Part shown: positions 1 to 36,292 of the stretch, in pieces
Numbering within the stretch: the stretch's first letter is position 1
Layout of the letters: each line of letters begins with the position of its first letter
DNA from: a virus
Virus record (IMG/VR): IMGVR_UViG_3300045922_000523
Span: 1 to 41,013 of that record
Reading direction: 5' to 3' (one strand)
Length of the DNA stretch: 41,013 nucleotides
Notes under the pieces: generated by a model
Database searches by the model: none
Seen by the model: the letters and a program-made list of their open reading frames with translations, nothing else
What the model was told of the DNA's origin: nothing
Made by a program: the position numbers and the translations under genes

Positions 1-127
1 CCGACAACATCGACCGGCGGATCACCGGGTATGGCTGCGCCTGCCCCGACACGTCGGCTCCCACCACCCCGGCGGTGGTGCTCGACCCGTTCGGTGGGAC
101 AGGCACAACCGCGATGGCCGCCCGAGC
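1..127 (+). repeat. 127-bp exact direct repeat, copy 1
   Basis: Bases 1-127 match 39972-40098 without a mismatch. Base 128 is A where base 40099 is G, and the copies are only similar after that. An exact match of 127 bases starting at the first base of a contig is what a de Bruijn assembler run with k=127 leaves at a graph branch. Confidence 0.9.
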
Positions 128-263: not shown

Positions 264-272
264 GGAGGAGAG

Positions 273-10183: not shown

Positions 10184-10392
10184 CCTGCCGCCGTCCGATC
10201 CGCCGATCAGGTATGCTGATCGGCAAACGTGCAGGCGTGCGGGCCAGATGCCCATGAGCACGCCTTCGTAGAGGGGCCGATCCCCGAGATCCACGCCAGG
10301 CCGAGGCAGATCCTCGTGGCCTTCGCGCACCTGATGGGCGCGGGCGTCCTGGACCCGACCCAGTTCACCCCCCATTTCGCGGAGGAAAGCCA
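10184..10392. other. Leader region of the major capsid gene
   Basis: About 209 bp between scaffold and capsid genes without a convincing ORF. It contains the inverted repeat at 10202-10224 and a good ribosome site (GGAGGAAAG) just before the capsid ATG. An untranslated leader giving high capsid expression is plausible. Confidence 0.5.
10202..10224. promoter_or_regulatory. Inverted repeat around a TATGCT box upstream of capsid gene
   Basis: GCCGATCA (10202-10209) and TGATCGGC (10217-10224) are perfect 8-bp arms with a 7-base loop containing TATGCT at 10212-10217. It could be a hairpin in the RNA, an operator, or the -10 region of a capsid promoter. No good -35 box lies 16-18 bp upstream. The 11-mer TGCAGGCGTGC at 10230-10240 also occurs in the operator element at 36089. 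Confidence 0.5.
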
Positions 10393-22940: not shown

Positions 22941-22948
22941 TCCCCTAA
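22874..22948 (+). CDS. Tiny zinc-ribbon peptide, 24 aa
   Basis: Begins at GTG 22874 in another frame, overlapping the end of the phosphoesterase gene. The product is MACPTCRRPIRLASG followed by ICFHCGMIP: two CxxC pairs with a spacing suited to one zinc ribbon. The four cysteines in a short frame are unlikely by chance. No good ribosome site is visible, so translational coupling is assumed. It could also be the true C-terminus of a frameshifted phosphoesterase. Confidence 0.4.
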   Translation: MACPTCRRPIRLASGICFHCGMIP

Positions 22949-23853
22949 GCCGCGCGCGCGCCTGCCCCGCCCCGGTCCGGGGGCGGGGTTTCGTCGCGTC
23001 CGGCACCCGGCGGGAGGAGCCGGCGCACCGCCTCGACCGCGGCGGCAGGGTTGACGTACGTGTATTGCTGCGTCGTGATGGGCGTCTCGTGGCCCAGGAG
23101 CTCTTGCGTGACCCGAAGGTCGCCGGTCGCCCGGTAGATCGTCGTCGCGAAGTAGTGGCGGAGCGTGTGGAGCGTGTGCTCGATCCCGAGATCGTGGAGG
23201 AACTGATTGCACGAATGCGAGACGACGTGCGCGGGGACGGGGCCGACCCGCCCGTCGCGTCGAGGGAAACACCATCCGACCTTCGGGAGCCCGAGTAGCT
23301 CCGGGAGCAGCAATGGGTGGACGGGCACGCTCCGCATCTTCCCGCCCTTCGCTTCGAACACGAGCAGCGGCGGCTCCTGGTGGAGCAGCACCCCCTCGGC
23401 GCGGAGGCGTGCGATCTCGAACGCGCGCAGTCCGGCGTAGCACGCGAGGTGCATCCACACTCGGACCCGATCGGTCGCGATGAGCAGCGCGCGCGCGAGA
23501 TCCTCCTCGGGCATGGGACGGGGGAGGCGTCGGTGCAGCCGCGGCCGTTCGACGCGCACCGTCGGATCATCATCGCGATGCCCCTCGAGGAGTGCCCACT
23601 TGAAGAACGCCCGGAGATGCGAGAGCTCCGTCGCCCGGCTCTCGGGTACCTCGAGCCGGGCGAGGAAGGCGACGATCTCCTCCGAGGTCGCGTGGATCGC
23701 GTCACGGCCGGTGAACCGCTCGAGGCGGCGCAGCGCGTATCGTCGTTGCGTGATCGTCGACGCGCGCAGGTTGCGTCGACGGAGATGATCTATGTGGGCC
23801 GACGTCAGCACGACCACCCCGCTCGTGATACGGCAGTCCCGTTTGTCGCTCAT
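22945..23853 (-). CDS. int: Tyrosine integrase, 302 aa
   Basis: Site-specific recombinase that would insert phage DNA at a host attB site. Residues 15-95 form the core-binding SAM-like domain. The catalytic domain shows AGLRAFEIARL (Arg143), EAKGGKMRSVPV (Lys172), HTLRHYF (His229, Arg232) and LGHETPITTQQYTYV (His255, nucleophile Tyr264): the full R-K-H-R-H-Y set. Length is that of XerC/D-like integrases; there is no long arm-binding domain. It lies 40 bp downstream of the repressor candidate on the same strand. A start slightly downstream at a GTG is possible. Confidence 0.93.
   Translation of the reverse strand: MSDKRDCRITSGVVVLTSAHIDHLRRRNLRASTITQRRYALRRLERFTGRDAIHATSEEIVAFLARLEVPESRATELSHLRAFFKWALLEGHRDDDPTVRVERPRLHRRLPRPMPEEDLARALLIATDRVRVWMHLACYAGLRAFEIARLRAEGVLLHQEPPLLVFEAKGGKMRSVPVHPLLLPELLGLPKVGWCFPRRDGRVGPVPAHVVSHSCNQFLHDLGIEHTLHTLRHYFATTIYRATGDLRVTQELLGHETPITTQQYTYVNPAAAVEAVRRLLPPGAGRDETPPPDRGGAGARAA
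22965..22988. terminator. Bidirectional terminator hairpin between late genes and integrase
   Basis: CCCCGCCCCGG pairs with CCGGGGGCGGGG with one bulge, followed by TTT on the + strand. It lies between the end of the rightward late genes and within the last codons of the leftward integrase, where two converging transcripts must stop. Confidence 0.65.
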
Positions 23854-23893: not shown

Positions 23894-24241
23894 TTACGCT
23901 GCGTTGGTCAGAAACTTCCGATTTTGACCAAAGAGGCTGTCGTGGAGCAGGTCTCGTAGCTCCTCGTCGTCGGGCCAGACCCTCGGGCGGATGATCTTGA
24001 TGCCGTATTCCGCCGGGTCGTGCTCGATCAGGAGTGCCAGCAGGTAGGCCCGCCGCAGGTCGTCGTACTTGGTGGGCCGCTCCTCGCACTTGAACAACTT
24101 GGCCCAGGTGTTCTGCACCGCCCGGTCGACGGTGTTGAGGGCGTCGACCACCTCGCGGAACGCGGCGATCCCCTGCTCGGCCATGTAGCGCTCCGTGTGG
24201 AGCTTCAATCGCTCTCCCCAGGTCACCGTCATCGTCGGCAT
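23894..24241 (-). CDS. Immunity repressor candidate, 115 aa
   Basis: ATG at 24241 has an excellent ribosome site (GGGAGGAAGGG). The sequence VTWGERLKLHTERYMAEQG, AFREVVDALNTVDRAV and RPTKYDDLRRAYLLALLIEH reads as a small all-helical DNA-binding protein in the style of short actinophage repressors. It is divergent from a Cro-like gene and upstream of int in the same direction. The C-terminus FLTNAA ends in Ala-Ala, like a ClpXP degradation tag. Recombination at a site in its 3' end would change this tail. The repressor call is by context. Confidence 0.6.
   Translation of the reverse strand: MPTMTVTWGERLKLHTERYMAEQGIAAFREVVDALNTVDRAVQNTWAKLFKCEERPTKYDDLRRAYLLALLIEHDPAEYGIKIIRPRVWPDDEELRDLLHDSLFGQNRKFLTNAA
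23904..23931. other. Candidate attP core: AT-rich inverted repeat in repressor 3' end
   Basis: TTGGTCA (23904-23910) and TGACCAA (23925-23931) are perfect 7-bp arms separated by 14 AT-rich bases (GAAACTTCCGATTT). The site lies in the last twelve codons of the repressor candidate, directly upstream of the integrase gene, and its AT-content contrasts with the GC-rich surroundings. This is where attP lies in phages with integration-dependent immunity. There is no tRNA-like sequence, so the call is from position and symmetry only. Confidence 0.4.
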
Positions 24242-24289: not shown

Positions 24290-24301
24290 CTGCCTACGCA
24301 G
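24290..24301. promoter_or_regulatory. Operator-like palindrome at repressor promoter
   Basis: CTGCCTACGCAG has 4-bp arms CTGC/GCAG. It covers the predicted start point of the leftward repressor transcript. Its first ten bases, CTGCCTACGC, recur exactly at 36131-36140 over the start point of another promoter. Confidence 0.5.
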
Positions 24302-24303
24302 AA

Positions 24304-24332
24304 ATGCTATACGCCAAAGCCTTGACGCACAA
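24304..24332 (-). promoter_or_regulatory. Leftward promoter for repressor and integrase
   Basis: On the minus strand, TTGTGC (24332-24327) and TAGCAT (24309-24304) are separated by 17 bp; TATAGC two bases away is an alternative -10. It would start RNA near 24297, some 56 bases before the repressor ATG. The -35 region abuts that of the divergent promoter. Confidence 0.5.
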
Positions 24333-24350
24333 GTCCCGATGTCGTAATCT
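24322..24350 (+). promoter_or_regulatory. Rightward promoter for Cro-like/early genes
   Basis: TTGACG (24322-24327), 17-bp spacer, TAATCT (24345-24350): near-consensus sigma-70/SigA boxes. Expected start is about 24357, which is the first base of the GTG start of the HTH gene, so the mRNA is predicted to be leaderless. Confidence 0.75.
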
Positions 24351-24369
24351 GCAAGCGTGCAGACTTGCG
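24350..24369. promoter_or_regulatory. Operator-like element at early promoter start
   Basis: TGCAAGCGTGCAGACTTGCG contains the inverted arms GCAAG and CTTGC eight bases apart. It spans from the -10 box over the start point and first codons of the HTH gene. It matches 36089-36108 at 19 of 20 positions. Confidence 0.65.
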
Positions 24370-24578
24370 AAGTCGCAGATGCACGCGCTTCCGTCGGTGC
24401 TCGCCTCCGGGTGCTGCGCCGTGAGCGTGGGCTGACGCAGGAACGACTGGCCGCCGCCGCCGGGATCTCGCACTCCACCATCTCGCGCATTGAGAGCGGG
24501 GAGGTGTCGGGCAGCGTGCGCTCCCTGACGAGCATCGCACGGGTGCTCGAGGTGCCGATCGGGGAGCTCGTGGCGTGA
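24357..24578 (+). CDS. Cro-like XRE-family HTH regulator, 73 aa
   Basis: The helix-turn-helix LTQERLAAAAGISHSTISRI with LRVLRRERG before it and LARVLEVPIGEL-type helices after is a canonical XRE/Cro-C1 domain; nothing else is present. GTG 24357 is the only in-frame start upstream of the domain and coincides with the predicted transcription start, so it probably lacks a leader. It is the first gene of the rightward early transcript, the position of cro in lambdoid and BPs-like switches. It likely binds the shared operators; whether it or the divergent protein is the dominant repressor is open. Confidence 0.85.
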   Translation: MQTCEVADARASVGARLRVLRRERGLTQERLAAAAGISHSTISRIESGEVSGSVRSLTSIARVLEVPIGELVA

Positions 24579-24793
24579 GGGCTCTGTTCCTGCCCACCGG
24601 GCGGGACGGCGAGTTCGTCAACGTCGTCCGGGCCGCCGCGATCCGCATCGCGCCGAGCGCACGCACCAAGCGGATCGCCGTGCTGGCCGTGTTCTCCGGG
24701 CACACCCGCCCCATCGGGGAGTTCGACACGCGGGAGCAGGCGGCGCGCTACGTGCGCGATCTCGTCGCCAGGATCAACGGAGCGGGCACGTGA
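24575..24793 (+). CDS. Hypothetical early protein, 72 aa
   Basis: GTG 24575 overlaps the HTH stop. The product has FVNVVRAAAIRIAPSARTKR, a strand RIAVLAVFSG and a helix REQAARYVRDLVARIN. A small alpha-beta fold is likely. No family recognised. Coupling to the regulator gene suggests an early function in the switch or takeover. Confidence 0.6.
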   Translation: MRALFLPTGRDGEFVNVVRAAAIRIAPSARTKRIAVLAVFSGHTRPIGEFDTREQAARYVRDLVARINGAGT

Positions 24794-24873
24794 CCTTCTA
24801 CCGGCTCGTCGGCCTCCTCGCGGCCTTCGTCATCGTCACCTGCTTCGCTCAGATGTTCGGGGTGACGCCGTGA
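24790..24873 (+). CDS. Tiny membrane peptide, 27 aa
   Basis: GTG 24790 overlaps the upstream stop and the stop overlaps the next GTG. Almost the whole peptide is one hydrophobic span (YRLVGLLAAFVIVTCFAQMF). The double four-base overlap supports translation. Function unknown. Confidence 0.5.
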   Translation: MTFYRLVGLLAAFVIVTCFAQMFGVTP

Positions 24874-25823
24874 CCCACCCGCGCGTCCTGGCCGTCGACC
24901 CCAACGACCACGCGCAGTGGCTTGCGGCCCGTCGGCGAGGGATCGGCTCGTCCGATGTCGCCGCGATCCTCGGCATGAGCAAGTTCGCGACGCCCTACAG
25001 CGTGTGGGTCGACAAGGTGGAAGGGCTCCCCGAGGACGAGTCGCCGGCGTTGGAGTTCGGTCGTCGCCTCGAAGCGGTCGTAGCCGACGCGTTCGCTGAC
25101 CGTCACCCCGAGTTCCTCGTGTTCAAGCCGTCGGAGATGTACGCGCACGGGGAGTTCGAGTGGATGCTCGCGAACCCCGACCGCCTGCTGTGGGAGGACG
25201 GGGATCTCGTCGGGGTGCTCGAGGTCAAGACGTCGAACTACGCCGACGACTGGAGCGGCGACGAGCCGCCCGACTACGTGCTGCTCCAGGTGCAGCACCA
25301 GCTCGCAGTGATGGATCTCCCATTCGGGATCGTGGCGCTGCTCATGTTCGGACGCGAGTACCGGGAGTTCCGCGTCGAACGCGACGAGCGGGTCATCGCG
25401 ATGCTCGTCGACCTCGAGCGCGACTTCTGGCGTCGCGTGGAGGAGCACGATCCCCCGCCGGTCGACGAGTCCGAGGTGACGGAAGCAGCGATCAAGTGGC
25501 TGTACCGCGAGCCGGACCCAGAGACGGTGGTCGAGCTCGGCGACGACGGGGCGCTGCTCCTCGAGGAGCGGGCGCAGGCCAAGCGTGCGCTCGACGAGGC
25601 GGAGCGCGCGTTCCGCGCGGCGGACAACGCCTTGAAGGCCCGGCTCGGCAACCGGACAGTGGCGACGGTGCGCGGCGAGGTCGCGGCGACGTGGAACGTC
25701 GTCGTGCGCCAGGGAGATCTCGACGTGGACGCGCTCGCGGCGGATCACCCGGAGCTCGTGCAGAAGTACCGCCGGCCGGCCACGACCTACCGACGGTTGC
25801 ACGTGAAGAAGGCGTGGGCATGA
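24870..25823 (+). CDS. YqaJ-type recombination exonuclease, 317 aa
   Basis: PD-(D/E)XK nuclease of the YqaJ/lambda-exonuclease group, which resects double-strand ends for phage recombination. Motifs: RRRGIGSSDVAAIL (21-34), LEFGRRLE (61-68), ANPDRLL with Asp104, VLEVKTS with Glu118 and Lys120, and QVQHQL (140-145). The C-terminal ~110 residues are helical and basic. It is paired with the RecT homologue at 25989, with only a 50-aa gene between, the usual two-component recombination set. Confidence 0.9.
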   Translation: MTHPRVLAVDPNDHAQWLAARRRGIGSSDVAAILGMSKFATPYSVWVDKVEGLPEDESPALEFGRRLEAVVADAFADRHPEFLVFKPSEMYAHGEFEWMLANPDRLLWEDGDLVGVLEVKTSNYADDWSGDEPPDYVLLQVQHQLAVMDLPFGIVALLMFGREYREFRVERDERVIAMLVDLERDFWRRVEEHDPPPVDESEVTEAAIKWLYREPDPETVVELGDDGALLLEERAQAKRALDEAERAFRAADNALKARLGNRTVATVRGEVAATWNVVVRQGDLDVDALAADHPELVQKYRRPATTYRRLHVKKAWA

Positions 25824-25839
25824 GCCGTGGGAGGTCGTG

Positions 25840-25992
25840 ATGCCGTGGGAGCTCCGCAAGAGCGGGACGCGCTGGTGCGTGTTCAAGAAGGGCACCGACG
25901 AGAAGGTCGGGTGCCATCCGACCCGTGAGAAGGCAGCCGCGCAACTGCGCGCGCTGTACGCGAACGCCTACGAGAAGGAGATGCGCCCGTGA
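25840..25992 (+). CDS. Small AP2-like/host-interaction domain protein, 50 aa
   Basis: ATG 25840 with GGGAGG upstream. MPWELRKSGTRWCVFKKGTD, then KVGCHPTREKAAAQLRALYA: three short strands and a helix, a small domain that recurs in actinophage genomes beside recombination and replication genes. The fold resembles tiny DNA-binding domains, but this is not shown. It is overlapped by the RecT start. Confidence 0.65.
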   Translation: MPWELRKSGTRWCVFKKGTDEKVGCHPTREKAAAQLRALYANAYEKEMRP

Positions 25993-27032
25993 GCGGAACC
26001 GACTTGGCCGCACGGGTGGAGGCCACGCAGGTCGCCCGGCAGACCGGCTCCGGCAAGACCGTGTTCCAGGCGCTCGAGGATCCGAAGTTCAAGACGCAGC
26101 TCGCCCGCGCGCTCCCCAAGGCGATCAACCCGGAGCGGTTCCTCCGCCTGGTACTGACCGAGTGCCGGACAAGCCCGAACCTGATGCGCTGCTCGCACGC
26201 GTCGCTCCTCGGGGCGACGATGACTGCCGCTCAGCTCGGGCTCGAGATCGACGTGCGCGGCCTCGCGTACCTGATCCCCCGCCGGCACAAGAACGGGTAC
26301 GCGGCGACGCTGATGATCGGCTACCGCGGCTACGTCGAACTCGCCCGCCGGTCGGGTGACGTGCGTGACGTGCGCGCCCACGTCGTCTACGAGCGTGACG
26401 ACTTCGACTGCGAGTACGGGGATTCCCCCCGCCTGTTCCACCGACCGACACTGATCGGTGAGCGTGGCGAGCCGGTCGCCGCGTACGCGGTCGCGTTCTA
26501 CAAGGACGGGACGACCAGCGCGCTCGCGTTGCGGGTCGACGAGATCGAGGCACGCCGGAAGCGGTCCGCGGCGAGGGACGACGGGCCGTGGGTGACCGAT
26601 TGGGACGCGATGGCCCGCAAGACCGCTGTGCGTGCGCTCGCCCCGTATCTGCCGCAGACGCCGGAGTTCGCGCACGCGCTCGCGCTCGACGAGCAGGTGC
26701 GCGTGGACTACGAGAAGCCGCTCGAGGACGTGAAGCCGCTAGAGGACGACGGCATCCCCGAGGCCGAGCTGGTCGGGGATGCGGAGGACGGAGAAGCGCC
26801 GGGCGGGTCAGATCCGCCTTTCCGCCCGGATCAGCGCAGCGACGAGGTGGCCCAAAACCCCCAGCCCTCCGCTGCCGACCCGCCCGGCCTCTCCGAGTAC
26901 GACGCGCTGACGCCGGCGCAGCTCCGCGCCGAGTGCGCCCGTCGCGAACTGGACCCGAAAGGCTCGAAGGCCGATCTCGTCGCCCGCCTCGTGGCGTTCG
27001 ACGAACGGCCGTTCGTCGAGGACGTGACCTGA
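25989..27032 (+). CDS. RecT-family annealase with C-terminal SAP domain, 347 aa
   Basis: Single-strand annealing protein that pairs the DNA ends produced by the upstream exonuclease. RecT core features: NPERFLRLVLTECRTSPNL, SLLGATMTAAQLGLEIDVRG, LIPRRHKNGYAATLMIGYRG and RDDGPWVTDWDAMARKTAVR. After an acidic, Pro-rich linker (about 250-300) comes a SAP-like motif, LTPAQLRAECARRELDPKGS plus KADLVARLVAF, a DNA-binding helix pair. RecT proteins normally lack this module. GTG start 25989. Confidence 0.88.
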   Translation: MSGTDLAARVEATQVARQTGSGKTVFQALEDPKFKTQLARALPKAINPERFLRLVLTECRTSPNLMRCSHASLLGATMTAAQLGLEIDVRGLAYLIPRRHKNGYAATLMIGYRGYVELARRSGDVRDVRAHVVYERDDFDCEYGDSPRLFHRPTLIGERGEPVAAYAVAFYKDGTTSALALRVDEIEARRKRSAARDDGPWVTDWDAMARKTAVRALAPYLPQTPEFAHALALDEQVRVDYEKPLEDVKPLEDDGIPEAELVGDAEDGEAPGGSDPPFRPDQRSDEVAQNPQPSAADPPGLSEYDALTPAQLRAECARRELDPKGSKADLVARLVAFDERPFVEDVT

Positions 27033-27088
27033 TGGTGCATCGCCTGCTGCGCTGGCTGCGCTTCCCGGCCCCGCGGAGGCTGCTGTGA
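27032..27088 (+). CDS. Very short basic peptide ORF, 18 aa
   Basis: ATG 27032 overlaps the RecT stop, and the stop overlaps the next GTG. The product is an amphipathic Arg/Leu/Trp peptide (MVHRLLRWLRFPAPRRLL). The overlaps suggest it may serve translational coupling more than a protein function. Confidence 0.3.
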   Translation: MVHRLLRWLRFPAPRRLL

Positions 27089-27585
27089 CGCTCCTGCCGG
27101 GTCCGACGAAGGCCGAATGCCAGGGTGACCGTGAGCGGTGTACCCGTAAGGACTGCCCCGCGTTCGGGACGCTCGGCCGGCCGGCGCGTGACGGGCTCCG
27201 CCGCGTGCGTGGCTGCGGGGACCCGGTGGCCCGCGGCGCGCGCAACCGCAGGAAGGGGCTGGCGAAGCAGCGTGTCGCCCGGCGACGGCTCGGCGTGCGC
27301 CCGTCCCACAAGTTCGGGGATGCCGACGAGGAACGGTGGGGCGATGCGCTGTTCGCGAACGAGGTGAAGTCGGGTCGCCAATGCGACCCGGTGAAAAACG
27401 CGTGGGCGCGCGCGGAGAGCCAGATCCGCGCGTCCGAGCCCGACCACGGCGGTCAGCACAAGCCGGCGAGGGTCACGTGGATGCCCGAAGGGTGGGGCAG
27501 CGACGGGCTGGTCGCGGTGCGGTTGTCCGCGTGGGAGCAGATCGTCTCCCCGGCGCTCGAGGCGTTCTACGGGCAGGCCGCGTGA
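27085..27585 (+). CDS. Putative nuclease of recombination module, 166 aa
   Basis: N-terminal part has four Cys (CQGDRERCTRKDC and later RGCG), possibly a zinc site, then a very basic stretch. The part FGDADEERWGDALFANEVKS and GRQCDPVKNAWARAESQI resembles actinophage Holliday-junction/PD-(D/E)XK-like nucleases, in which an acidic residue and the E-x-K pair (EVKS) coordinate metal. The end holds VTWMPEGWGSDGLVAVRLSA. Position after exonuclease and annealase fits DNA processing. The family call is tentative. Confidence 0.55.
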   Translation: MTLLPGPTKAECQGDRERCTRKDCPAFGTLGRPARDGLRRVRGCGDPVARGARNRRKGLAKQRVARRRLGVRPSHKFGDADEERWGDALFANEVKSGRQCDPVKNAWARAESQIRASEPDHGGQHKPARVTWMPEGWGSDGLVAVRLSAWEQIVSPALEAFYGQAA

Positions 27586-27713
27586 GCACCGGAATCCACC
27601 CGACGCCTACGCCCCCGCCTCCGCCTCCGCCCACGCCTTCGCCAACGCCGCCGCCGGCGCCGACGCCCCCGCCCCCGCCCCCGCCAACGTCTCCGCCAAC
27701 GTCCAACACCTGA
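27582..27713 (+). CDS. Proline/threonine-only repeat ORF, 43 aa
   Basis: GTG 27582 overlaps the upstream stop. After MSTGIHPTPT nearly all residues are Pro with interspersed Thr, Ser and Ala. The DNA is a run of CC-G/C-rich triplets. A similar tract ends the protein at 28693-29082, and related DNA lies at 32400-32450. It may be a spreading low-complexity sequence rather than a conserved protein. Confidence 0.4.
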   Translation: MSTGIHPTPTPPPPPPPTPSPTPPPAPTPPPPPPPTSPPTSNT

Positions 27714-27726
27714 AAGGAGCCTCCCC

Positions 27727-28377
27727 ATGCAACTGACCATCAACCTCCGCTCGTACATCGCCGACCCGTACTGGCCCGAGCGCGAGCGGCTCATCAACAT
27801 CCAGAAGGAATCGGGGATGAACCGTGCCCGGTCCTCCGCCAACCGGCGCAAGGCGCTGGAGGAGCACCTGCGCGCCAATGACATGACCCTCGCCGACTAC
27901 GAGCGCCTCGAAGTGCTCGCGTCACGGCCGTTCCACACCGACGACGACGGCCGGATCGTGATCCCGTCGCGGCAGGTGACCGCGATGATCGTCGCGACCT
28001 GCGACGAGGCGCGCGCCGCGTTCCGCCCGTGCCCTCCGGAGCAGGTGCGCTACGCGATCCGCGCGTCGTCGTGGACGACCGACGTCACCCCCGATGACGC
28101 GCTCGTGTGGGAGCGGTACGCGATGGTGACCGCCGGGACCGGGGCGCGGCTGTCGAACCAGCGTGCGCTCCGCCGCAACGCGTACATCGGCGCCGAACCG
28201 CCAGACGAGACGCTCGCCGCGACGAAGCCGGTCACCGCCCGTGGGACCGTCGAGGTCGACCCGGAGATGGTCAAGCCGGATGTGCTGCTGAACGCGCTCA
28301 CGTGGGCGGGTCAGCGTATCGGGATCGGCGCGTGCCGGAAGATGGGATGGGGCCGATTCGAGGTGCTCGCCGAGTGA
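27727..28377 (+). CDS. Conserved-looking early protein with G-rich C-terminal motif, 216 aa
   Basis: ATG 27727 follows AAAGGAG. The N-terminal part has IQKESGMNRARSSANRRKAL. The rest is strand-rich with VRYAIRASSWTTDVTP and ends AGQRIGIGACRKMGWGRFEV. That last motif (G-x-G-x-x-R-x-x-G-x-GRFEV) recalls the Gly-rich loop of RAMP/RRM-fold proteins and of several unnamed phage early proteins. A single-strand nucleic-acid binding role next to the recombination genes is possible. I cannot name the family. Confidence 0.65.
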   Translation: MQLTINLRSYIADPYWPERERLINIQKESGMNRARSSANRRKALEEHLRANDMTLADYERLEVLASRPFHTDDDGRIVIPSRQVTAMIVATCDEARAAFRPCPPEQVRYAIRASSWTTDVTPDDALVWERYAMVTAGTGARLSNQRALRRNAYIGAEPPDETLAATKPVTARGTVEVDPEMVKPDVLLNALTWAGQRIGIGACRKMGWGRFEVLAE

Positions 28378-28691
28378 TCCGCCGTCTCCTGCGCCGCTGC
28401 GACTATCCCGGCTGCCGCAGCCGCGGCACGGTGACAGGCGCGTTCGAGCGTCGCCGGGCAGGCAGCGTCGTCGTCAAGTCGCAGAAGCTGCGGCTCTGTG
28501 ACGCCCATGCCGGCGCGCTCGCGACGATCGCGATGCGCGGGCGGGAAGCGCGCATAAGGGTGATCGATGCGGCGACGGGAGAGGAGTCGGAGTATCTCGG
28601 CCGGGACGCCGCGGCGCGCCGCCTCGCGCTCGTCAAGGGGATCCCCCTCCGTCAGGCGCGCCGCGAGCTCGACCAGCGGAGGGGCCGCTGA
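28374..28691 (+). CDS. Zinc-binding hypothetical protein, 105 aa
   Basis: GTG 28374 overlaps the upstream stop. CDYPGCRSRG near the start and LCDAHAGAL near residue 45 give a Cys-x4-Cys..Cys-x2-His zinc site, as in short actinophage zinc proteins. The C-terminal half is helical and basic (AARRLALVKGIPLRQARREL). Function unknown. Confidence 0.65.
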   Translation: MIRRLLRRCDYPGCRSRGTVTGAFERRRAGSVVVKSQKLRLCDAHAGALATIAMRGREARIRVIDAATGEESEYLGRDAAARRLALVKGIPLRQARRELDQRRGR

Positions 28692-28692
28692 G

Positions 28693-29082
28693 ATGCCGAT
28701 GGCAGCACGCGTGATGCCGAAGCCAGCCCGTGCCCGGATGCCGGGCGAGCCGGGTTGCGACCGCAAGGTGCGGTTCTCGTCGCGCAAGAAGGCGATGGAC
28801 GCTCTGCGGACATTGCACCGCACCGGGCGCCGCTTGGGAAGCGCGGACGTCAAGGGAATGTCCGCTTACTTCTGTGAGCGTCACAACTGCTGGCACCTTG
28901 GGCATCGCGGCCCGCAGGAACCTCGATCAAGGATCTCGCCGCCGCCGCCGCCCCCGCCAGCGCCATCGCCAGCGCCAACGCCATCGCCCCCGCCGCCGCC
29001 ATCGCCACCGCCTACGCCGCCGCCATCGCCACCGCCTACGCCTCCGCCTACGTCTCCGCGGATACGGGAGGAGGCGGCATGA
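28693..29082 (+). CDS. Small Cys/His domain protein with polyproline tail, 129 aa
   Basis: The first ~75 residues contain DRKVRFSSRKKAMDALRTLH and MSAYFCERHNCWHLGHRG, the FC..H.CWHLGH pattern common to small actinophage proteins that probably bind zinc. From about residue 82 the protein turns into a Pro-rich tail with Ser, Thr and Ala (36 or more residues), ending RIREEAA at a start-stop overlap. Homologues normally end soon after WHLG, so the tail looks like an added low-complexity tract. Confidence 0.6.
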   Translation: MPMAARVMPKPARARMPGEPGCDRKVRFSSRKKAMDALRTLHRTGRRLGSADVKGMSAYFCERHNCWHLGHRGPQEPRSRISPPPPPPPAPSPAPTPSPPPPPSPPPTPPPSPPPTPPPTSPRIREEAA

Positions 29083-29504
29083 GTGGCTGCATCGTCGGCG
29101 ACCGCAGGTGCGGATCCGCATCGGCATACGCCGCAGGATGCCGCGAACCTGCGTGCCGCCAGGCACATACCGAATACCAACGGCAGCGCCGCGCCAGCGC
29201 TCCGCACGTCAGCATCGAGCGGGTTCCACTGCGCGCCTGGGTGAGCCAAGCCGCCTGCCGCGCTGAGCCGACCGCTACGTTCTTCCCGACGGTCGAGCAC
29301 CCCATCGCCATTGGTCTCCGGCACGCCATCCGCACCGATCCGTGGGAGCGGGCACGGCGGATCTGCGGTAGCTGCCCGGTGTGGGAGCAGTGTCTCGACG
29401 AGGCGCTCCTGTTCCACCCCAACGAGGACTTCGGGTTCCGTGGCCGCCACGACCCCTACGAGCGGCGCAAGCTGCGGAAGCAGAGGCGGAGGGTCGCGGG
29501 ATGA
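29079..29504 (+). CDS. WhiB-family Fe-S regulator with extra N-terminal domain, 141 aa
   Basis: WhiB proteins are actinobacterial transcription factors holding a 4Fe-4S cluster. Cys60, Cys96, Cys99 and Cys105 give the C-x(n)-C-x2-C-x5-C set (WVSQAACRAEP, ICGSCPVWEQC). The loop after it, GFRGRHDPYERRKLRK, replaces the usual G-V/I-WGG turn and leads into the basic DNA-binding tail. Residues 1-38 (RCGSASAYAAGCREPACRQA) are a separate Cys-rich motif, also known as a stand-alone phage domain. WhiB strongly points to an actinobacterial host. Phage WhiB proteins can interfere with host WhiB regulation. Confidence 0.85.
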   Translation: MSGCIVGDRRCGSASAYAAGCREPACRQAHTEYQRQRRASAPHVSIERVPLRAWVSQAACRAEPTATFFPTVEHPIAIGLRHAIRTDPWERARRICGSCPVWEQCLDEALLFHPNEDFGFRGRHDPYERRKLRKQRRRVAG

Positions 29505-29914
29505 CGGACGTCGCGGCCCGCGCCGCGGAGGACTGGAGCCAGCTCGAGATCGAGCGTGACCTGATGGATCGCGCGAACGCGGCGGCAAAGGCGCGGATCG
29601 CGCTCCGCACCAAGGCGCGTGAGGTGGGTATCGCGAAGGCGCAATACAAGGCGATCCGGGCTACGACCGCGTTGCGCCTCCGCGCCGAGGACATCGAGAC
29701 TGGTGCGCCGGCCCGTGGACCAGGTGCGGTCACCGAGTCGGTCCGTGAGGCGCGCGTCGACGCGAACGAGCAGGTGAAGGACGCGGCACTCCGGTACTAC
29801 ATCGCGGAAGCCGAGTTCGAGGCGGAGCAGGAAGCCGCGCGGCTGCTGCGCACGGAGATGGCGGCCCTCCAGTCGATCTTGGCTGATCTTCGCCCGATGG
29901 TGAGCGAGCGGTGA
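29501..29914 (+). CDS. Helical hypothetical protein, 137 aa
   Basis: ATG 29501 overlaps the WhiB stop. Nearly all helical, Ala/Glu/Arg-rich (DLMDRANAAAKARIALRTKA, YIAEAEFEAEQEAARLLRTE), likely a coiled coil. The segment KAQYKAIRATTALRLRAEDIE resembles phage HTH-containing helices, but no clear domain is seen. It precedes the replication initiator and may act with it. Confidence 0.6.
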   Translation: MTDVAARAAEDWSQLEIERDLMDRANAAAKARIALRTKAREVGIAKAQYKAIRATTALRLRAEDIETGAPARGPGAVTESVREARVDANEQVKDAALRYYIAEAEFEAEQEAARLLRTEMAALQSILADLRPMVSER

Positions 29915-29938
29915 GCGCCGCGCAGAGGACCGAATGAG

Positions 29939-30646
29939 ATGGCGAGGATCCGGACGATGAAGCCAGAGTTCTTCGGGAGCCCCAAGACCGCGAAGGTGTC
30001 GATCGGTGCGCGGCTGACGTTCCTCGGCCTGCTCACCGAGTCGGACGACGAAGGGAAGCTCCTGGGCGCGGCCAAGCGGATCGCCGGCGCGCTGTTTCCC
30101 AATGATGACGACGTGACGCCCCGCAAGGTCTCCGCGTGGCTCGACGAGCTCGAGCGGGCACGTTTCATCCTGCGGTACGCGGTCGACGGGGTGGAGTACG
30201 TGTTCATCCCTGGGTTCGCCGAGCACCAGCGTGTCTCTCACCCGACACCTTCGAGAATCCCCGGACCACCTCCGGAACTTCTCGCGAAAATCTCCGGAGA
30301 GGCGCCGGAAGATTTCGTCCCTGAAAAGGAACAGGGAACAGGGAACAGGGAAGCGCGCGCGCGCGTCGTCGACGCGGAGTTCGACGCGCTGTGGGTGGAC
30401 TACCCACGCAAGGTCGCGCGCAAGGCCGCGGCGAAGGCGTACGCGGCGCGACGACGCGAGGGGGTGCCCGCCGAGGATCTCGCGCTCGCGGTGAAGCACT
30501 ACGCCGCGGCGATGGACGGTCAGGAAGAACGGTTCATCATGCACGGCTCCACGTTCTTCGGACCGAACGAACGGTGGAAGGACTACCTCGCGCCGACGCA
30601 GCAGGAGTCGGCCGTGCCGGACTGGATGCGGGGGCCGACGCTGTGA
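29939..30646 (+). CDS. Replication initiator (DnaD/replisome organiser-like), 235 aa
   Basis: The N-terminal winged-helix domain begins MARIRTMKPEFFGSPKTAKV, then ARLTFLGLLTESDDEGKLLG, typical of phage replisome organisers that bind the origin and load the helicase. A variable linker (about 100-140) is followed by a helical C-terminal part, DALWVDYPRKVARKAAAKAY and FGPNERWKDYL, found in phage DnaC/DnaD-like loaders. The linker DNA contains a 7-bp tandem repeat and iteron-like CCGGA boxes, so the origin may lie inside the gene. A helicase gene follows one gene later. Confidence 0.8.
   Translation: MARIRTMKPEFFGSPKTAKVSIGARLTFLGLLTESDDEGKLLGAAKRIAGALFPNDDDVTPRKVSAWLDELERARFILRYAVDGVEYVFIPGFAEHQRVSHPTPSRIPGPPPELLAKISGEAPEDFVPEKEQGTGNREARARVVDAEFDALWVDYPRKVARKAAAKAYAARRREGVPAEDLALAVKHYAAAMDGQEERFIMHGSTFFGPNERWKDYLAPTQQESAVPDWMRGPTL
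30245..30366. repeat. Iteron-like and 7-bp tandem repeats in initiator gene, possible origin
   Basis: 30328-30352 is GGAACAG repeated 3.5 times. A GC dinucleotide run follows (30353-30365). Upstream (30250-30316) CCGGA/TCCGG boxes recur at short spacing with AT-richer stretches between. Phage origins often lie in the initiator gene between its two domains, the place seen here. Confidence 0.45.
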
Positions 30647-30999
30647 GCCGAGGTCCGCTGCTGCCGGAGCGCCTGAGCGAGTTGCCGGACTTCATCGTGT
30701 TCGACGCGCAGCCGACGGTCGACGGGTGGTGCGCGACGGGGATTGTGCACGCGCCCGAGGCGTGCGACCCGCCCTGCCCGTTCCATGCGCCTTCGGCGCA
30801 CCCGCTTGCGCGCGCGCCGAAGGCGATGTTCCGCCTCCCCTTCGGCTGGATCGTATTCCGGGCGTGCGAGCACCTGATCCTCCACCCGGATCCCGACTCG
30901 CTGATGCACATGCGCCGGGTCGGCACGCTGCCCACCTATCCGGTGATGCACACCTGCTGCCCGACCCGGTGCTGCGGGCTCGACGAGGACGGGGCATGA
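30643..30999 (+). CDS. Cys/His-rich actinophage protein, 118 aa
   Basis: GTG 30643 overlaps the initiator stop. CDPPCPFHAPSAHPLARAPK, then CEHLILHPDPDSLMHMRR and HTCCPTRCCG. This set of Cys, His and HPDPD repeats a small protein found near replication genes in many actinophages, with several potential zinc ligands. Function unknown. It overlaps the helicase start. Confidence 0.7.
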   Translation: MSRGPLLPERLSELPDFIVFDAQPTVDGWCATGIVHAPEACDPPCPFHAPSAHPLARAPKAMFRLPFGWIVFRACEHLILHPDPDSLMHMRRVGTLPTYPVMHTCCPTRCCGLDEDGA

Positions 31000-32228
31000 G
31001 GGGCTGGGTTCCTCCCCACGATCTCGACGCCGAGGCTGCTGCGCTCGGCGCGGCGATGCTGACCGTCGCGGCGCGCGATCTGCTGTTCGCTTCCCTGTTT
31101 GCCGAGGACTTCTACGCGCCGAAGCACCAGGCGATCTTCAGGGCGATCGCCGCGGTCCACTTCCGCGGCCAGGCGGTCGATCCGCTCACCGTCGCACGCG
31201 AGCTGCGAGGAAAGGGCGGGGACGAGCACGCTGACGCGAAGGAGGAGCTGCTGCGCCTCGCCGCGTCAACCGGGATCCACCACCGCGAGTACGTGCGGAT
31301 CGTCGCGGAGCTCGCCGCGCGTCGACGTCTCATCGCGTTGGCGGACCGGGTGCGCGACGACGCGTGCGGGGATCGTCCGGTCGATGAGATCGTGGCGGAG
31401 CTCGAGCACGTGGCCGACAAGGTGCGGCTCCCAATGGTCGACATCGAGCCCGCGGAGTCCGCGTTGACGTTGGCGACCCGGACTCGGGACGTTCAGTACC
31501 GATGGCTGGTGCCCGACTGGATCGAGCGCCAGGACCGTGTGGCGCTCACCGGGGCGGAAGGCGTCGGGAAGTCGACGCTGATGCGCCAGTGGGCGGTGCA
31601 GCTCGCGTCGGGTATCCATCCGTGGAACCTCACCGCGATGCACCGGGTCTCGACGTTGTACGTCGACCTCCAGGACACGCCGCAGCAGGCCGGGCGCGCG
31701 TTCAGTCGGCTCATCGCCATTGCCGGCGCGCGTTATGACGACTCGAAGCTGCATGTCGTCTGCTGGCGTGCCGGGATCGACCTGCGGGACCGGCGCGACT
31801 ACCGCAGGGTGGACCGGCTCATGGAGATCCACAAGCCGGACGTGCTGATGCTCGGCCCGCACTACAAGTGCTACCGGCTTGCCAAAGGCGAGAAGTCGAG
31901 TGACGAGGGGCCGGCGATCGAGACCGCCAACGCGCTCGATGCGGTGCTCGCGCGTCACGACGCGGCGCTCGTGATCGAGATGCACTCGCCGCACGGTGAG
32001 AACAACGACCGTGCGCAGGGCCGGCCGTACGGCCCGTCGTTGTGGCTCCGTTGGCCCGAGTTCGGGATCTGGTTGCACCACCCGAAGGGCCAACCGGACG
32101 TGCTGGTGGCTGATCGGTGGCGTGGTGACCGGGACCGCGCGCGCGGGTTCCCCGGACGGTTCACGTCGTCGGGTCGTTGGCCGTGGTCCGCGTTGCTCGA
32201 GCAGGACGGCCTACTGGAGGGGGCGTGA
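30996..32228 (+). CDS. Replicative helicase, DnaB N-domain with RepA-like ATPase, 410 aa
   Basis: Residues 1-145 match the DnaB N-terminal helical domain (DLDAEAAALGAAML, FYAPKHQAIFRAIAAV, STGIHHREYVRIV). The second part is a RecA-fold ATPase with Walker A GAEGVGKST (186-194), Walker B near STLYVDLQDT, and later sensor regions (ALVIEMHSPHGEN). The ATPase resembles RepA/AAA_25-type helicases more than DnaB itself. It should unwind the fork after loading by the initiator. Confidence 0.88.
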   Translation: MRGWVPPHDLDAEAAALGAAMLTVAARDLLFASLFAEDFYAPKHQAIFRAIAAVHFRGQAVDPLTVARELRGKGGDEHADAKEELLRLAASTGIHHREYVRIVAELAARRRLIALADRVRDDACGDRPVDEIVAELEHVADKVRLPMVDIEPAESALTLATRTRDVQYRWLVPDWIERQDRVALTGAEGVGKSTLMRQWAVQLASGIHPWNLTAMHRVSTLYVDLQDTPQQAGRAFSRLIAIAGARYDDSKLHVVCWRAGIDLRDRRDYRRVDRLMEIHKPDVLMLGPHYKCYRLAKGEKSSDEGPAIETANALDAVLARHDAALVIEMHSPHGENNDRAQGRPYGPSLWLRWPEFGIWLHHPKGQPDVLVADRWRGDRDRARGFPGRFTSSGRWPWSALLEQDGLLEGA

Positions 32229-32980
32229 CGGTGACGAGGCGTGATCGGTTGTGGGTGGTGTTCCTGGCCGCGCTGCGGGCGGAGTGCGCGATCCGACGGC
32301 ATCTACGCCGCGGTGGGCGCGATCCGAGGAAGCGGCACGCCAGGTCTCCGGGCAACGTGATGTCGTCACTCATCCCACCGGCTCCCCGAGATCGACCCAC
32401 TCGCGACGTCGACGCCCGCGCCGGCGCCAACGCCTCCGCCGCCGCCCCTTTCCTCGCTGGCCTCGCGTTCACTGTCTCCGTCACCCTCCTCGCGGTGGCC
32501 GGTCATCCCCCACACCGCCGGCCGGCCGCTACCGGCCAGACCCTCGGATCCCCTCCCGCCATCGTCACCGGCTGGCCGGAGGGCACCACCGACCTGATCG
32601 CGCGGCTCGGAGCCGCAGCCATCCACATCGAGGAGGAGGAGGAACGTGAGCGACTGGAGGCTGAGCGCCTGGCAGCAGCTCGCCGTGCTGGAGACGCCGG
32701 TGTGGCTCGCGCAGGAGATCGAGCACCGGCGTCGTGCGACGGGGTTGATTGGGTCGTCCCGGTCTGGATCGTCGCACGGGAGTCCGGCTGCCGCGTCGAC
32801 GCGGTTTCGCCGGACGGCCGGTACGTCGGCGCGTACCAGTTCGATGCGCGCCACTGGGACGCGGGGAGCGGCTGGGGAGGATGCGCGGATCTCGGGGATT
32901 GGCGCGACCCGGAGAGCCAGCACGAATGCGCCCGTCGGCTCTCCGCCGGCGGAACCGACCTCCGTCCCTGGGGAGGGTGA
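32225..32980 (+). CDS. Membrane-anchored Rpf/transglycosylase-like protein, 251 aa
   Basis: Basic N-terminal part, one transmembrane span (about 76-93, FLAGLAFTVSVTLLAVAG), a coiled coil (IEEEEERERLEAERLAAARR), then a lysozyme-like domain: VPVWIVARESGCRVDAVSPD with Glu186 as likely catalytic acid, GRYVGAYQFDARHW, and the end ECARRLSAGGTDLRPWGG. It resembles resuscitation-promoting-factor/transglycosylase-like domains. Being in the early region, it is not the main endolysin; an exposed, anchored muralytic enzyme expressed early or in lysogens is suggested. ATG 32360 is an alternative start. Confidence 0.72.
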   Translation: MTVTRRDRLWVVFLAALRAECAIRRHLRRGGRDPRKRHARSPGNVMSSLIPPAPRDRPTRDVDARAGANASAAAPFLAGLAFTVSVTLLAVAGHPPHRRPAATGQTLGSPPAIVTGWPEGTTDLIARLGAAAIHIEEEEERERLEAERLAAARRAGDAGVARAGDRAPASCDGVDWVVPVWIVARESGCRVDAVSPDGRYVGAYQFDARHWDAGSGWGGCADLGDWRDPESQHECARRLSAGGTDLRPWGG

Positions 32981-32983
32981 GTG

Positions 32984-34354
32984 ATGCGGATCGACAGGCT
33001 GACACCAGAGCAGGAGGCCCGCATGGACGAGTGGGCCGACCGGTGGATCGAGATCGGCCTGCGGACCGGTCCGGCTGACCGTCCCCGGTTCGAGGCCGCG
33101 GTCGCGGAGTGCTATCGGTTCGCCGGGCTGGAGCCGCCGCGTGTTGTGTGGTGCTCGTCGCCGCTCGTCGCGGTGGTGGCGGGGCCGATCGCGGCCTCCC
33201 TCCTGCACGACGCGCTGGGGAGGCCGGGCGCTGCGGTGGACAACACGGTGGGAGCGATGTACCACGCGGTGGGCGTCGCGGTGGGCGACGCGGTGCGAGG
33301 CGCGGTGGACGACGCGGTGGGCGTCGCGGTGGGCGACGCGGTGCGAGGCGCGGTGGACGACGCGGTGGGCGTCGCGGTGGGCGACGCGGTGGGGGCGGTG
33401 GGAGACGCGGTGGACGCGGTGGACGACGCGGTGCGCGTCGCGGTGCGCGTCGCGGTGACGGCGGTGGACCGCGCGGTGGGAGACGCGGTGGGGGCGGTGG
33501 ACGACGCGGTGCGCGTCGCGGTGGACGCGGTGGACGCGGTGGACGTCGCGGTGCGCGTCGCGGTGACGGCGGTGGACCGCGCGGTGCGAGGCGCGGTGGA
33601 CGCGGTGGAAGACGCGGTGCGCGTCGCGGTGCGCGTCGCGGTGGGCGACGCGTGGTGGAGGTATCTCGGTGGGCAGTTCTGGGTGGGCGGCTCGGGGTGG
33701 GGACCGGCCTGGACCTCGTTCTTTCGTGAGGTCTGCGGCCTGCGGCTGGCGGGTGACCTGTGGGACCGTGCCCGAGCGTGGGAGGCGACGGTCGAGTCGG
33801 CCTGCTGGTGGTGGCCGCACCCCGAGTTCGTCACGGTGTCCGAACGGCCCGAGGAGATCCACCTGGAGCAAGTCGGGCCCCGCGGGCCGGGGTCGCATCG
33901 GCTGCACCGTGAGGACGGCCCGGCGATCATCTGGCCGGACGGGTGGGGGATCTGGGCCTGGCATGGGGTGCGTGTCCCCCGCGAGGTGATCGAGACCCCC
34001 GACGCGCTGACCGTCGACTGGATCCTCGGGCACCCGAACGCGGAGGTGCGCCGCGCGGCGTGCGAGCGGATCGGCTGGGACCGCTTCGCCGCCCAGGCGG
34101 GGCTCGCCGCAGTGGACCGCTGCCCCGACCCTGCGAATCCCGGCCACGACCTGGCCCTCTACGACCTGCCCGAGGCGATCTTCGAGCGGCCGGTGCGGCT
34201 GCTCGTGTGCGTGAACGCGTCGCCGGACCGGGATGGGACACGCCGCCGGTTCGGGCTGACCGTGCCCGCCGACGTGCCGGACGCGCTCACCGCGGCGGCG
34301 TGGACGTTCGGGATCGACCGTGACACCTACGCGGGCCTGACCCGCGCGACCTAG
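32984..34354 (+). CDS. DUF6745-type protein with long Ala-Val repeat, 456 aa
   Basis: N-terminal part PADRPRFEAAVAECYRFAGL and VVWCSSPLVAVVAG and C-terminal part HRLHREDGPAIIWPDGWGIW and HGVRVPREVIE match the DUF6745 proteins of actinobacteria, whose function is unknown. Residues ~95-222 are an almost pure four-residue repeat with Ala-Val at every turn (VGVAVGDAVRGAVDDAVG and so on). GGAGGG lies 8 bp before ATG 32984. A strong ribosome site before 34369 indicates an operon with the next gene. I infer a self-contained two-gene module brought in by transfer. Confidence 0.78.
   Translation: MRIDRLTPEQEARMDEWADRWIEIGLRTGPADRPRFEAAVAECYRFAGLEPPRVVWCSSPLVAVVAGPIAASLLHDALGRPGAAVDNTVGAMYHAVGVAVGDAVRGAVDDAVGVAVGDAVRGAVDDAVGVAVGDAVGAVGDAVDAVDDAVRVAVRVAVTAVDRAVGDAVGAVDDAVRVAVDAVDAVDVAVRVAVTAVDRAVRGAVDAVEDAVRVAVRVAVGDAWWRYLGGQFWVGGSGWGPAWTSFFREVCGLRLAGDLWDRARAWEATVESACWWWPHPEFVTVSERPEEIHLEQVGPRGPGSHRLHREDGPAIIWPDGWGIWAWHGVRVPREVIETPDALTVDWILGHPNAEVRRAACERIGWDRFAAQAGLAAVDRCPDPANPGHDLALYDLPEAIFERPVRLLVCVNASPDRDGTRRRFGLTVPADVPDALTAAAWTFGIDRDTYAGLTRAT
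33269..33654. repeat. In-frame 12/48-bp tandem repeat coding for Ala-Val
   Basis: The basic unit is 12 bases (variants of GACGCGGTG plus three). A 48-bp unit is perfectly duplicated at 33269-33316 and 33317-33364, with a half copy after it. A second unit, GTGCGCGTCGCGGTGACGGC with GGTGGACCGCGCGGTG, occurs near 33443-33478 and 33551-33586. All units are multiples of three, so copy-number change keeps the frame. Confidence 0.92.
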
Positions 34355-34368
34355 AGAGGAGACTGCCA

Positions 34369-34761
34369 GTGGGCACGTACGTCGAGGTGATGGGAGGCCG
34401 GGTCGAGATCCCGGCGCATCTGGAGGCCCAGGCCGAGGTGCCGGTACTCGGAGGGCCGCAACGGCAGGGGGACATCCTGGTCCTGCCGACGCGTGCGGGC
34501 CGGGAGCGGGGTGAGCGCATCCCGCCGGAGGGGGTGCCGGTCGTGCGCGGGGAGGCGACCGGGCACACGCATCTGCTGGTGGGTGACGGCTGGTGGCGTC
34601 CGGCCGGGTCGGGTCAGGACCTCGGGATGCTGACCGTCCCTGCTGGCGGCGCGGCGTATCTGCTGCACCCGGAGCATGGGGCGCAGGGCATCGCACCAGG
34701 CGCGTACCTGGTCCGGCGTCAGCGGGAGCAGGCGGACGAGATCCGTCTCGTCGCGGACTGA
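34369..34761 (+). CDS. Partner of DUF6745-type protein, beta-rich, 130 aa
   Basis: GTG 34369 follows GAGAGGAGA. The product reads QGDILVLPTRAGRERGERIP, then VVRGEATGHTHLLVGDGWW and LHPEHGAQGIAPGAYLVRRQ plus REQADEIRLV. The G-E-x-TGHxH core, a turn with H-E-x-x-x, and the R-x-R-Q-R-E end form a cupin-like or beta-barrel pattern that accompanies DUF6745 proteins in actinobacteria. The two His (GHTH) might bind a metal. Function unknown. Confidence 0.7.
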   Translation: MGTYVEVMGGRVEIPAHLEAQAEVPVLGGPQRQGDILVLPTRAGRERGERIPPEGVPVVRGEATGHTHLLVGDGWWRPAGSGQDLGMLTVPAGGAAYLLHPEHGAQGIAPGAYLVRRQREQADEIRLVAD

Positions 34762-34868
34762 TGACGACGCTCGCTGATGTGATCGCGGATCAGGCCGCGC
34801 AACACGCGCTCCGCGACTTCGCGGACACGCTCACGGACATCCTTGGGGAGGAGGCCTCGGGGGGATGA
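34761..34868 (+). CDS. Small helical protein, 35 aa
   Basis: ATG 34761 overlaps the stop of the DUF6745 partner. The product is one amphipathic helix (LADVIADQAAQHALRDFADT). The stop overlaps the next ATG. It might bind one of its neighbours. Not recognised. Confidence 0.5.
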   Translation: MTTLADVIADQAAQHALRDFADTLTDILGEEASGG

Positions 34869-35275
34869 GGGCGCGGATCCCGATGTATGAACGTCGGCTC
34901 GTCTATATCGCCGGTCCCTACACCCGGCCCGATCCGGTGGCGAACACCCGCGCCGCGCTCGACACCGCGGAACGGCTGCACGCGACGGGCGTGGTCACTT
35001 GCGTCGTTCCGCACCTCACGATGCTGTGGCATTTCGCGCACCCGCATGACCTCGAGTATTGGTATGAGCTCGATCTTGCGACGCTGGCGCGCTGCGACGC
35101 GCTGCTGCGGATCCCCGGCGAGTCGACCGGCGCGGATCGTGAGGTGACGTTCGCGGCCCAACGCGGCATCCCCGTGTTCCGCGACGCCGACGCCTTGCTG
35201 GCATGGGTCACGACAAGGGAGGGAGGCGCTCGGCAGAGTGGACGGGCGACGGGGCACCGTGCGTGCGCCTACTGA
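34865..35275 (+). CDS. Nucleoside deoxyribosyltransferase-like (DUF4406-like) protein, 136 aa
   Basis: Residues 11-110 show LVYIAGPYTRPDPVANTRAA, VPHLTMLWHFAHPHDLEYWY, CDALLRIPGESTGADREVTF and AAQRGIPVF. IAGPYT at the nucleotide-binding end, the acidic residue in the central helix and the PGxSxGADRE segment are those of the nucleoside 2-deoxyribosyltransferase/DUF4406 fold. It may exchange or cleave bases on deoxynucleosides to modify the nucleotide pool. The last 25 residues are Arg-rich and atypical. Confidence 0.72.
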   Translation: MRARIPMYERRLVYIAGPYTRPDPVANTRAALDTAERLHATGVVTCVVPHLTMLWHFAHPHDLEYWYELDLATLARCDALLRIPGESTGADREVTFAAQRGIPVFRDADALLAWVTTREGGARQSGRATGHRACAY

Positions 35276-35287
35276 TCGGGGAGCAGG

Positions 35288-35425
35288 ATGATCGAGGTGA
35301 AGTTGAACGTGTGGGTGCGCGCCGCCTCGGACGAGGACGCGGACCGGATCATCCACGCGATCCGCACGCTCGGCGTGACGGTGCTGGAGGAGTCCCGCCA
35401 GGAGGATGAGAGCCCGTGCACGTGA
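35288..35425 (+). CDS. Small hypothetical protein, paralogue of 567-713, 45 aa
   Basis: ATG 35288 is preceded by GAGCAGG. The product MIEVKLNVWVRAASDEDADR continues with an isoleucine-rich helix and VTVLEESRQEDE. It shares strand-helix-strand layout and several residues with the 48-aa product at 567-713. Function unknown. Confidence 0.6.
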   Translation: MIEVKLNVWVRAASDEDADRIIHAIRTLGVTVLEESRQEDESPCT

Positions 35426-36065
35426 TGGCGAGGCCGAGTCGGTGAAGCTGCGACGTGCAGCCCCACCCTTGCCGAAGCGTCGGGGTGACGGCACCCGGAC
35501 GTGGCGCACTCGTGATCTCATGGAGCAGATCACCTGGCTCGAGGATGCCGCCGCGGAACTTCGAGAACGGTCCGTGACGGTGATCCAGCGCGCATGTCGG
35601 GATCTCGACGACGGGACGGGCCGGCGGGTCGATGAGCGGGTGGCCGGCGGACGCTACGACGAGGATGGCTCTGCCCCCGGCCGGGTGCCGGCGATGGTGC
35701 TGGCCCGGTTCCGCGACGGCGCATGGCATGGTGACCCGGTGGAGACGGCCGTACGCGATCTCGTCAGTGGCGTGATGGCCGCGCGCGCGGCACTTCTGGG
35801 GGCGCTCGATGCGGCGGGTCGCCTGCGGGGAATGGGGGCCGAGGAGGCGGCGGGCTTCGCCGAACGGGTGCGCGAGCTCCAGGGTCGAGCGTCGGGCTAC
35901 TGCGCGAACTGCGGGCGGTGGGTGTCGGGGACCGACGAGGACCGTCTGCGGGCGGGCCGCTGCGAGGCGTGCTACCGCTTCCGACAACGGCACGGTGCCG
36001 ACCGTCCGCTCTCGGAGGTGGAGCGCGAGCGGGTCATCGCGTTGCATAGGTCGGGGGACTTGTGA
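35406..36065 (+). CDS. Zinc-finger protein of early region end, 219 aa
   Basis: Helical protein with MEQITWLEDAAAELRERSVT and VRDLVSGVMAARAALLGALD, then a four-Cys finger (YCANCGRWVSG, RCEACYRFRQRHG) and an end LSEVERERVIALHR that looks helix-turn-helix-like. A similar domain order is found in small actinophage regulators or DNA-binding proteins. Starts at 35406 (overlap of 20 bp with the upstream gene) or GTG 35442. It is the last gene of the long rightward early run. Confidence 0.65.
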   Translation: MRARARDGEAESVKLRRAAPPLPKRRGDGTRTWRTRDLMEQITWLEDAAAELRERSVTVIQRACRDLDDGTGRRVDERVAGGRYDEDGSAPGRVPAMVLARFRDGAWHGDPVETAVRDLVSGVMAARAALLGALDAAGRLRGMGAEEAAGFAERVRELQGRASGYCANCGRWVSGTDEDRLRAGRCEACYRFRQRHGADRPLSEVERERVIALHRSGDL

Positions 36066-36088
36066 GCAGGGTCTCTGACCTGCGGTTT

Positions 36089-36108
36089 TGCAGGCGTGCA
36101 GACTTGCG
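36089..36108. promoter_or_regulatory. Second copy of switch-region operator element
   Basis: TGCAGGCGTGCAGACTTGCG matches 24350-24369 at 19 of 20 bases and keeps the inverted arms. It overlaps the -35 box of the promoter at 36104-36132, where a bound protein would exclude RNA polymerase. Confidence 0.65.
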
Positions 36109-36132
36109 CGTCCCCCGCGGATGATGTATGCT
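36104..36132 (+). promoter_or_regulatory. Promoter for structured RNA region
   Basis: TTGCGC (36104-36109), exactly 17 bp, TATGCT (36127-36132). Expected start ~36139. The ten bases CTGCCTACGC at 36131-36140, shared with 24290-24299, cover the start point. There is no gene with a ribosome site directly downstream. Confidence 0.6.
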
Positions 36133-36138
36133 GCCTAC

Positions 36139-36292
36139 GCTGGGCGCGTGCGCGAATCCACGCGTCCAGTCGTGAGGCGACACCGAGGGCGAAACCCTCG
36201 TGGTTGGCTTCCTCTCCGTGAGGGAGTGCGGTCGGACGGGTCGCTACCGTCGCGGGTCCGCGGGGTGACGCCGCCGGCCGGCCACCGGCGGC
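36139..36292 (+). ncRNA. Structured small RNA candidate
   Basis: From the promoter at 36104-36132 the sequence can form several hairpins: CGAGGG-CGAAA-CCCTCG (36184-36200), CCTC-TCCGT-GAGG (about 36211-36223), GACGG...CCGTC (about 36235-36251) and the large GCCGCCGG/CCGGCGGC stem at 36270-36292. No ribosome site and no credible ORF is present; one frame stays open (GTG 36148) but runs antisense through the recombinase. Function unknown; repressor-controlled regulatory RNA is one idea. Confidence 0.45.
36270..36292. terminator. Bidirectional terminator-like hairpin
   Basis: GCCGCCGG (36270-36277) and CCGGCGGC (36285-36292) pair perfectly around a 7-base loop. It ends at the last bases of the recombinase stop codon, so it can end the leftward recombinase transcript and the rightward RNA candidate. 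There is no clear T-run. Confidence 0.6.

Follow-up and report, generated by a model that had tools for sequence, protein, structure and literature searches.

An 18-bp dyad as putative operator at the switch and at a distal predicted promoter of a temperate actinobacterial-type phage

A 20-base sequence located at the lysis-lysogeny switch of this phage (TGCAAGCGTGCAGACTTGCG, 24350–24369) recurs on the same (+) strand 11.7 kb away, at a distant predicted promoter (TGCAGGCGTGCAGACTTGCG, 36089–36108), 19 of the 20 bases being identical. An 18-bp dyad contained in it, GCARG-N8-CYTGC, is probably the operator of a switch-encoded regulator, most likely the 73 amino acid Xre/Cro-type protein. This putative operator of a switch regulator, with a tandem pair of copies at the distal locus, is well supported by the sequence statistics and by the layout, and arrangements of this kind are already known, phage repressors with dispersed operators having been demonstrated experimentally for mycobacteriophage BPs (PMC4557955). 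This provides a short and concrete operator definition for an orphan temperate phage switch, and suggests that the same control extends to a distal promoter, possibly that of a non-coding RNA. Dispersed operators in phages of actinobacterial type would thereby gain an example from outside the mycobacteriophages that have been studied.

The DNA analysed (the window) is a virus record of 41,013 bases with a GC content of 70%. Among its phage genes are those for a terminase, portal and capsid proteins, RecE/RecT and DnaB-type replication functions. The annotated relatives of the capsid protein are found mainly in Arthrobacter, Microbacterium and Cellulosimicrobium phages, with about 30% identity. 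The phage is temperate and of the actinobacterial type. The switch consists, in order, of the integrase gene (−), the gene for a 115 amino acid protein (−), a divergent promoter region and the gene for the 73 amino acid regulator (+), downstream of which RecE, RecT and then the replication genes extend as far as position 36065 (Table 1). The left end of the window (1–266) is repeated near the right end (39972–40238) with 88.8% identity, and both repeats carry a C-terminal stretch of a DNA methyltransferase; the repeat reflects either duplication of the domain or a circular genome that wraps around imperfectly. Within gene 32981–34354, which matches DUF6745, short repeats of the GCGGTGGRCG type are densely packed at 33261–33640.

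Table 1. Coordinates of genes, predicted promoters and putative operators
Feature	Position	Strand	Remarks
Possible operator at a third locus	10222..10241	+	16/20; upstream of capsid gene, 5 bp past a TATGCT box
Tyrosine integrase, XerC-like	22945–23853	−	Switch region
115-aa orphan protein	23894..24241	−	Candidate immunity repressor by gene position
Candidate divergent promoter of the 115-aa gene	24304..24332	−	TTGTGC-17-TAGCAT; rank 35; weak
Predicted early promoter, PR	24322..24350	+	TTGACG-17-TAATCT; top-scoring sigma-70-like site in window
Putative operator dyad, switch	24351..24368	+	GCAAG-N8-CTTGC; within 20-mer 24350–24369
73-aa Xre/Cro-type HTH regulator	24357..24578	+	Strong HTH_3/HTH_31 match; predicted leaderless
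Weak second switch dyad	24375..24392	+	GCAGA-N8-CTTCC; 8/10 arm positions
Putative upstream distal operator dyad	36066..36083	+	GCAGG-N8-CCTGC; exact pattern match
Putative distal operator dyad	36090..36107	+	GCAGG-N8-CTTGC; within 20-mer 36089–36108; overlaps −35 box of distal promoter
Predicted distal promoter, P36	36104..36132	+	TTGCGC-17-TATGCT; rank 48 in window
Predicted short P36 transcript	36139..36292	+	Hairpins at both ends; without credible gene
Serine recombinase, 238 aa	36292–37008	−	Converges on early operon

The two copies of the 20-mer are the sole matches in the window at up to three mismatches, where 0.01 are expected. Some 13 dispersed pairs with 19/20 identity occur in the window, most of them apparently between coding stretches, so that such a pair is unremarkable by itself. 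Among the 29 intergenic regions (4.2 kb), no other two are joined by a 19/20 match; 0.015 are expected, and one appeared in 1.5% of 200 shuffle sets. In 300 shuffles of the switch and 36-kb regions, no match with one mismatch was longer than 15 bases, compared to the 20 observed. The recurrence described in the original prediction is thereby upheld. The same prediction had joined the two loci through a second element, the 10-mer CTGCCTACGC, whose exact occurrences are indeed confined to 24290 and 36131. An exact match of at least 10 bases between the two regions arose, however, in about 12% of the shuffles, and the 10-mer has opposite orientations at the two loci relative to the predicted transcripts; it was dropped as a second operator. 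The argument from two independent elements thus falls away, since the 10-mer is compatible with chance. Operators common to the switch and the distal promoter are still the best reading, one that gains strength from the symmetry of the dyad, from the exact spacing of the tandem sites and from their placement on promoter boxes.

In its sequence the 20-mer forms an imperfect dyad, GCARG-CG-TGCA-GA-CTTGC. Its symmetrised arm pattern, the 18-bp GCARG-N8-CYTGC, is matched exactly at three places in the genome, where 0.15 would be expected; the pattern was derived from two of these sites, and the independent part of the result lies in the third copy and in the spacing. All three exact dyads are intergenic, and the single-mismatch arm matches elsewhere in the genome are coding. 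The exact dyad at 36066–36083 and the weak one at 24375–24392 are additional sites, missing from the original prediction. At both loci the spacing is 24 bp (36066 to 36090, and 24351 to 24375). Genome-wide, arm scores of at least 8 are reached at 0.25% of positions; up to 60 bp from the three exact sites they are seen solely at 24-bp offsets. A chance repeat in a GC-rich genome would be in keeping with the dispersed 19/20 pairs and with the shared 10-mer, but is very unlikely in view of the intergenic expectation, the excess of exact dyads and the repeated 24-bp offset. A perfect 13-bp palindrome (GACTTGCGAAGTC, 24362–24374) overlaps the switch operator and is absent from the 36-kb copy.

Promoters were called using our own sigma-70-like scoring; a stricter scan with the E. 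coli consensus returned no promoter site at the switch or at the 36-kb locus. The −35 box of the divergent promoter shares one base with that of PR. The GTG of the Xre gene comes 7 nt after the −10 box of PR, and a leaderless mRNA is accordingly predicted for this gene, the operator lying over the start point and the start codon. The switch dyad itself covers the end of the −10 box, the start point and the GTG; the Xre protein, if bound there, would turn the early promoter off and thereby repress its own synthesis. The position of this dyad on the top-scoring promoter and on the start codon of the regulator supports the operator reading as a whole; the rank of P36 and the want of a recognisable product from that promoter count against it. 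P36 possesses a good −10 box and a −35 box no better than background.

A phage-encoded regulator of DNA-binding type is present at the switch in the form of the 73 amino acid protein, which resembles autoregulating controller (C) proteins and phage repressors. C proteins, for example C.Csp231I with its tandem palindromic operators CTAAG-n5-CTTAG (PMC4824078), are likewise small proteins of the Xre fold with a leaderless gene and tandem palindromic operators, and a single C protein both activates and represses, as may be the case here. They differ in their motif, and both sites of a C system lie upstream of the C gene. A role for the 73 amino acid regulator as the C protein of a restriction-modification system was rejected: no restriction-modification operon was found, the neighbours of its gene being RecE/RecT and the integrase.

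The dyads may instead be bound by the 115 amino acid product acting as immunity repressor, a possible though somewhat unlikely reading in which the Xre protein would be the Cro, maybe sharing the sites, and the repressor of a BPs-like integration-dependent switch would silence PR and the distal promoters. The gene order (integrase, small gene, divergent promoters, Cro-like gene) is in its favour, as is the precedent of BPs, whose repressor gp33 binds five regions (OR, O6, O27, O55 and O61) and controls three distant promoters in addition to PR (PMC4557955). The last codons of the 115 amino acid gene, beside the XerC-like integrase, hold an attP-like dyad on the − strand (TTGGTCAAAA-TCGGAAGT-TTCTGACCAA, 10-8-10, 23904–23931), one of 12 such 10-8-10 dyads in the window, and the protein ends in ...RKFLTNAA, i.e. 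in -AA; the dyad and this terminus make the phage a candidate for BPs-like integration-dependent immunity. Against this reading, the protein matches no family, those of DNA-binding proteins included, and its structure model is all-helical, of low confidence and without a fold match. The only annotated immunity repressor that it matched, that of Chymera, did so marginally (E-value=0.019). Homology to a known immunity repressor being no stronger than this, the phage was not filed under BPs-like integration-dependent immunity, and the Xre/Cro-type protein is retained as the probable binder.

In its layout the phage is like BPs: a small temperate phage switch adjoins the integrase, the early promoter carries a palindromic putative operator, copies that are identical or nearly so stand at distant intergenic promoters, and each full site is made up of two adjacent elements. 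As with dispersed operators generally, one dyad is shared by the switch promoter and a distant one. The BPs half site (CGACATATGTCG, spaced 5–8 bp) differs in sequence from the dyad found here, and in BPs the repressor is encoded by a gene other than the Cro-like one; the likeness drawn here is one of layout.

At 36.1 kb the tandem pair, 24 bp apart, would be occupied by the same regulator, probably as two cooperating dimers, beside and over the −35 box of P36. Taking the start to be near 36139, the centres of these distal operators fall near −40.5 and −64.5. In lambda, OR2 and OR1 occupy comparable positions at PRM, so that activation of P36 is as plausible as its repression; activation from OR2 is described for lambdoid phages (PMC5977221). 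Like the OR1–OR2 sites of CI and Cro at the lambda PR/PRM region, those of the present phage are tandem dyads spaced by about 24 bp, with one set over a promoter that it would repress, and the distal pair near −40/−64 of another promoter corresponds to OR2/OR1 for PRM. The sequence is different, the main switch site lies on the start point here and not on the −35 box, and the distal promoter is not that of the regulator gene; cooperativity and looping are known on the lambda side of the comparison.

The 36-kb copies are near the serine recombinase gene, and the dyads could conceivably be crossover or accessory sites of that enzyme, being imperfect, of a length that such enzymes can bind, and in direct orientation at the two loci. 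This is highly improbable, given that the sites adjoin the 3' end of the gene and not its 5' end, that the switch copy coincides with the start codon of a gene for an HTH regulator, and that the identity extends over just 20 bp, the number of sites differing between the loci. The recombinase stops inside its Recombinase domain, and the same phage also encodes the tyrosine integrase.

P36 would transcribe a stretch of about 150 nt, apparently non-coding, beyond the early operon. Between 36139 and the convergent recombinase gene no credible gene was seen. A stem-loop begins at the predicted 5' end of the P36 RNA, and a GC-rich hairpin is situated at 36270–36292. Folding energy was rejected as a sign of a non-coding RNA (z=−1.35 against shuffles, not significant). 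A comparison with Rfam gave nothing at the gathering score, only sub-threshold matches, and the best antisense duplex of the 36139–36292 RNA (−121.8) was close to the best for shuffled RNA (−120.6), no target being claimed. We tentatively propose, while thinking it rather unlikely, that the regulator represses the early promoter and, from the tandem sites near −40 and −64, activates P36 at the far end of the early operon, the short structured non-coding RNA being a state-dependent output of the switch; this function of the RNA is one that we infer.

Phage records, viral contigs and bacterial genomes yielded no relatives with this switch. Nothing matched the exact 20-mer, and a search with the tandem dyad returned 15 contigs, mostly coding or repeat, in just one of which there was an Xre-like match, about 1.2 kb away. 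Relatives by capsid (five short contigs) and by RecT (two distant phages) contained no usable switch.

A third, weaker match had been placed upstream of the capsid gene (TGCAGGCGTGC, 10230). It is present, although the better register is 10222–10241, and as a third operator locus this site is suggestive only: 0.16 matches at 16/20 are expected genome-wide, and 14% of shuffled genomes contain one. The hexamer TATGCT occurs in the window solely at P36 and at this site. In BPs, one distant operator is situated between genes 5 and 6 (PMC4557955). An open frame with GC-rich third positions (10229–10639) has its GTG start inside the weak third operator and extends out of frame into the capsid gene; it is possibly a small gene, a frameshift or a sequence error.
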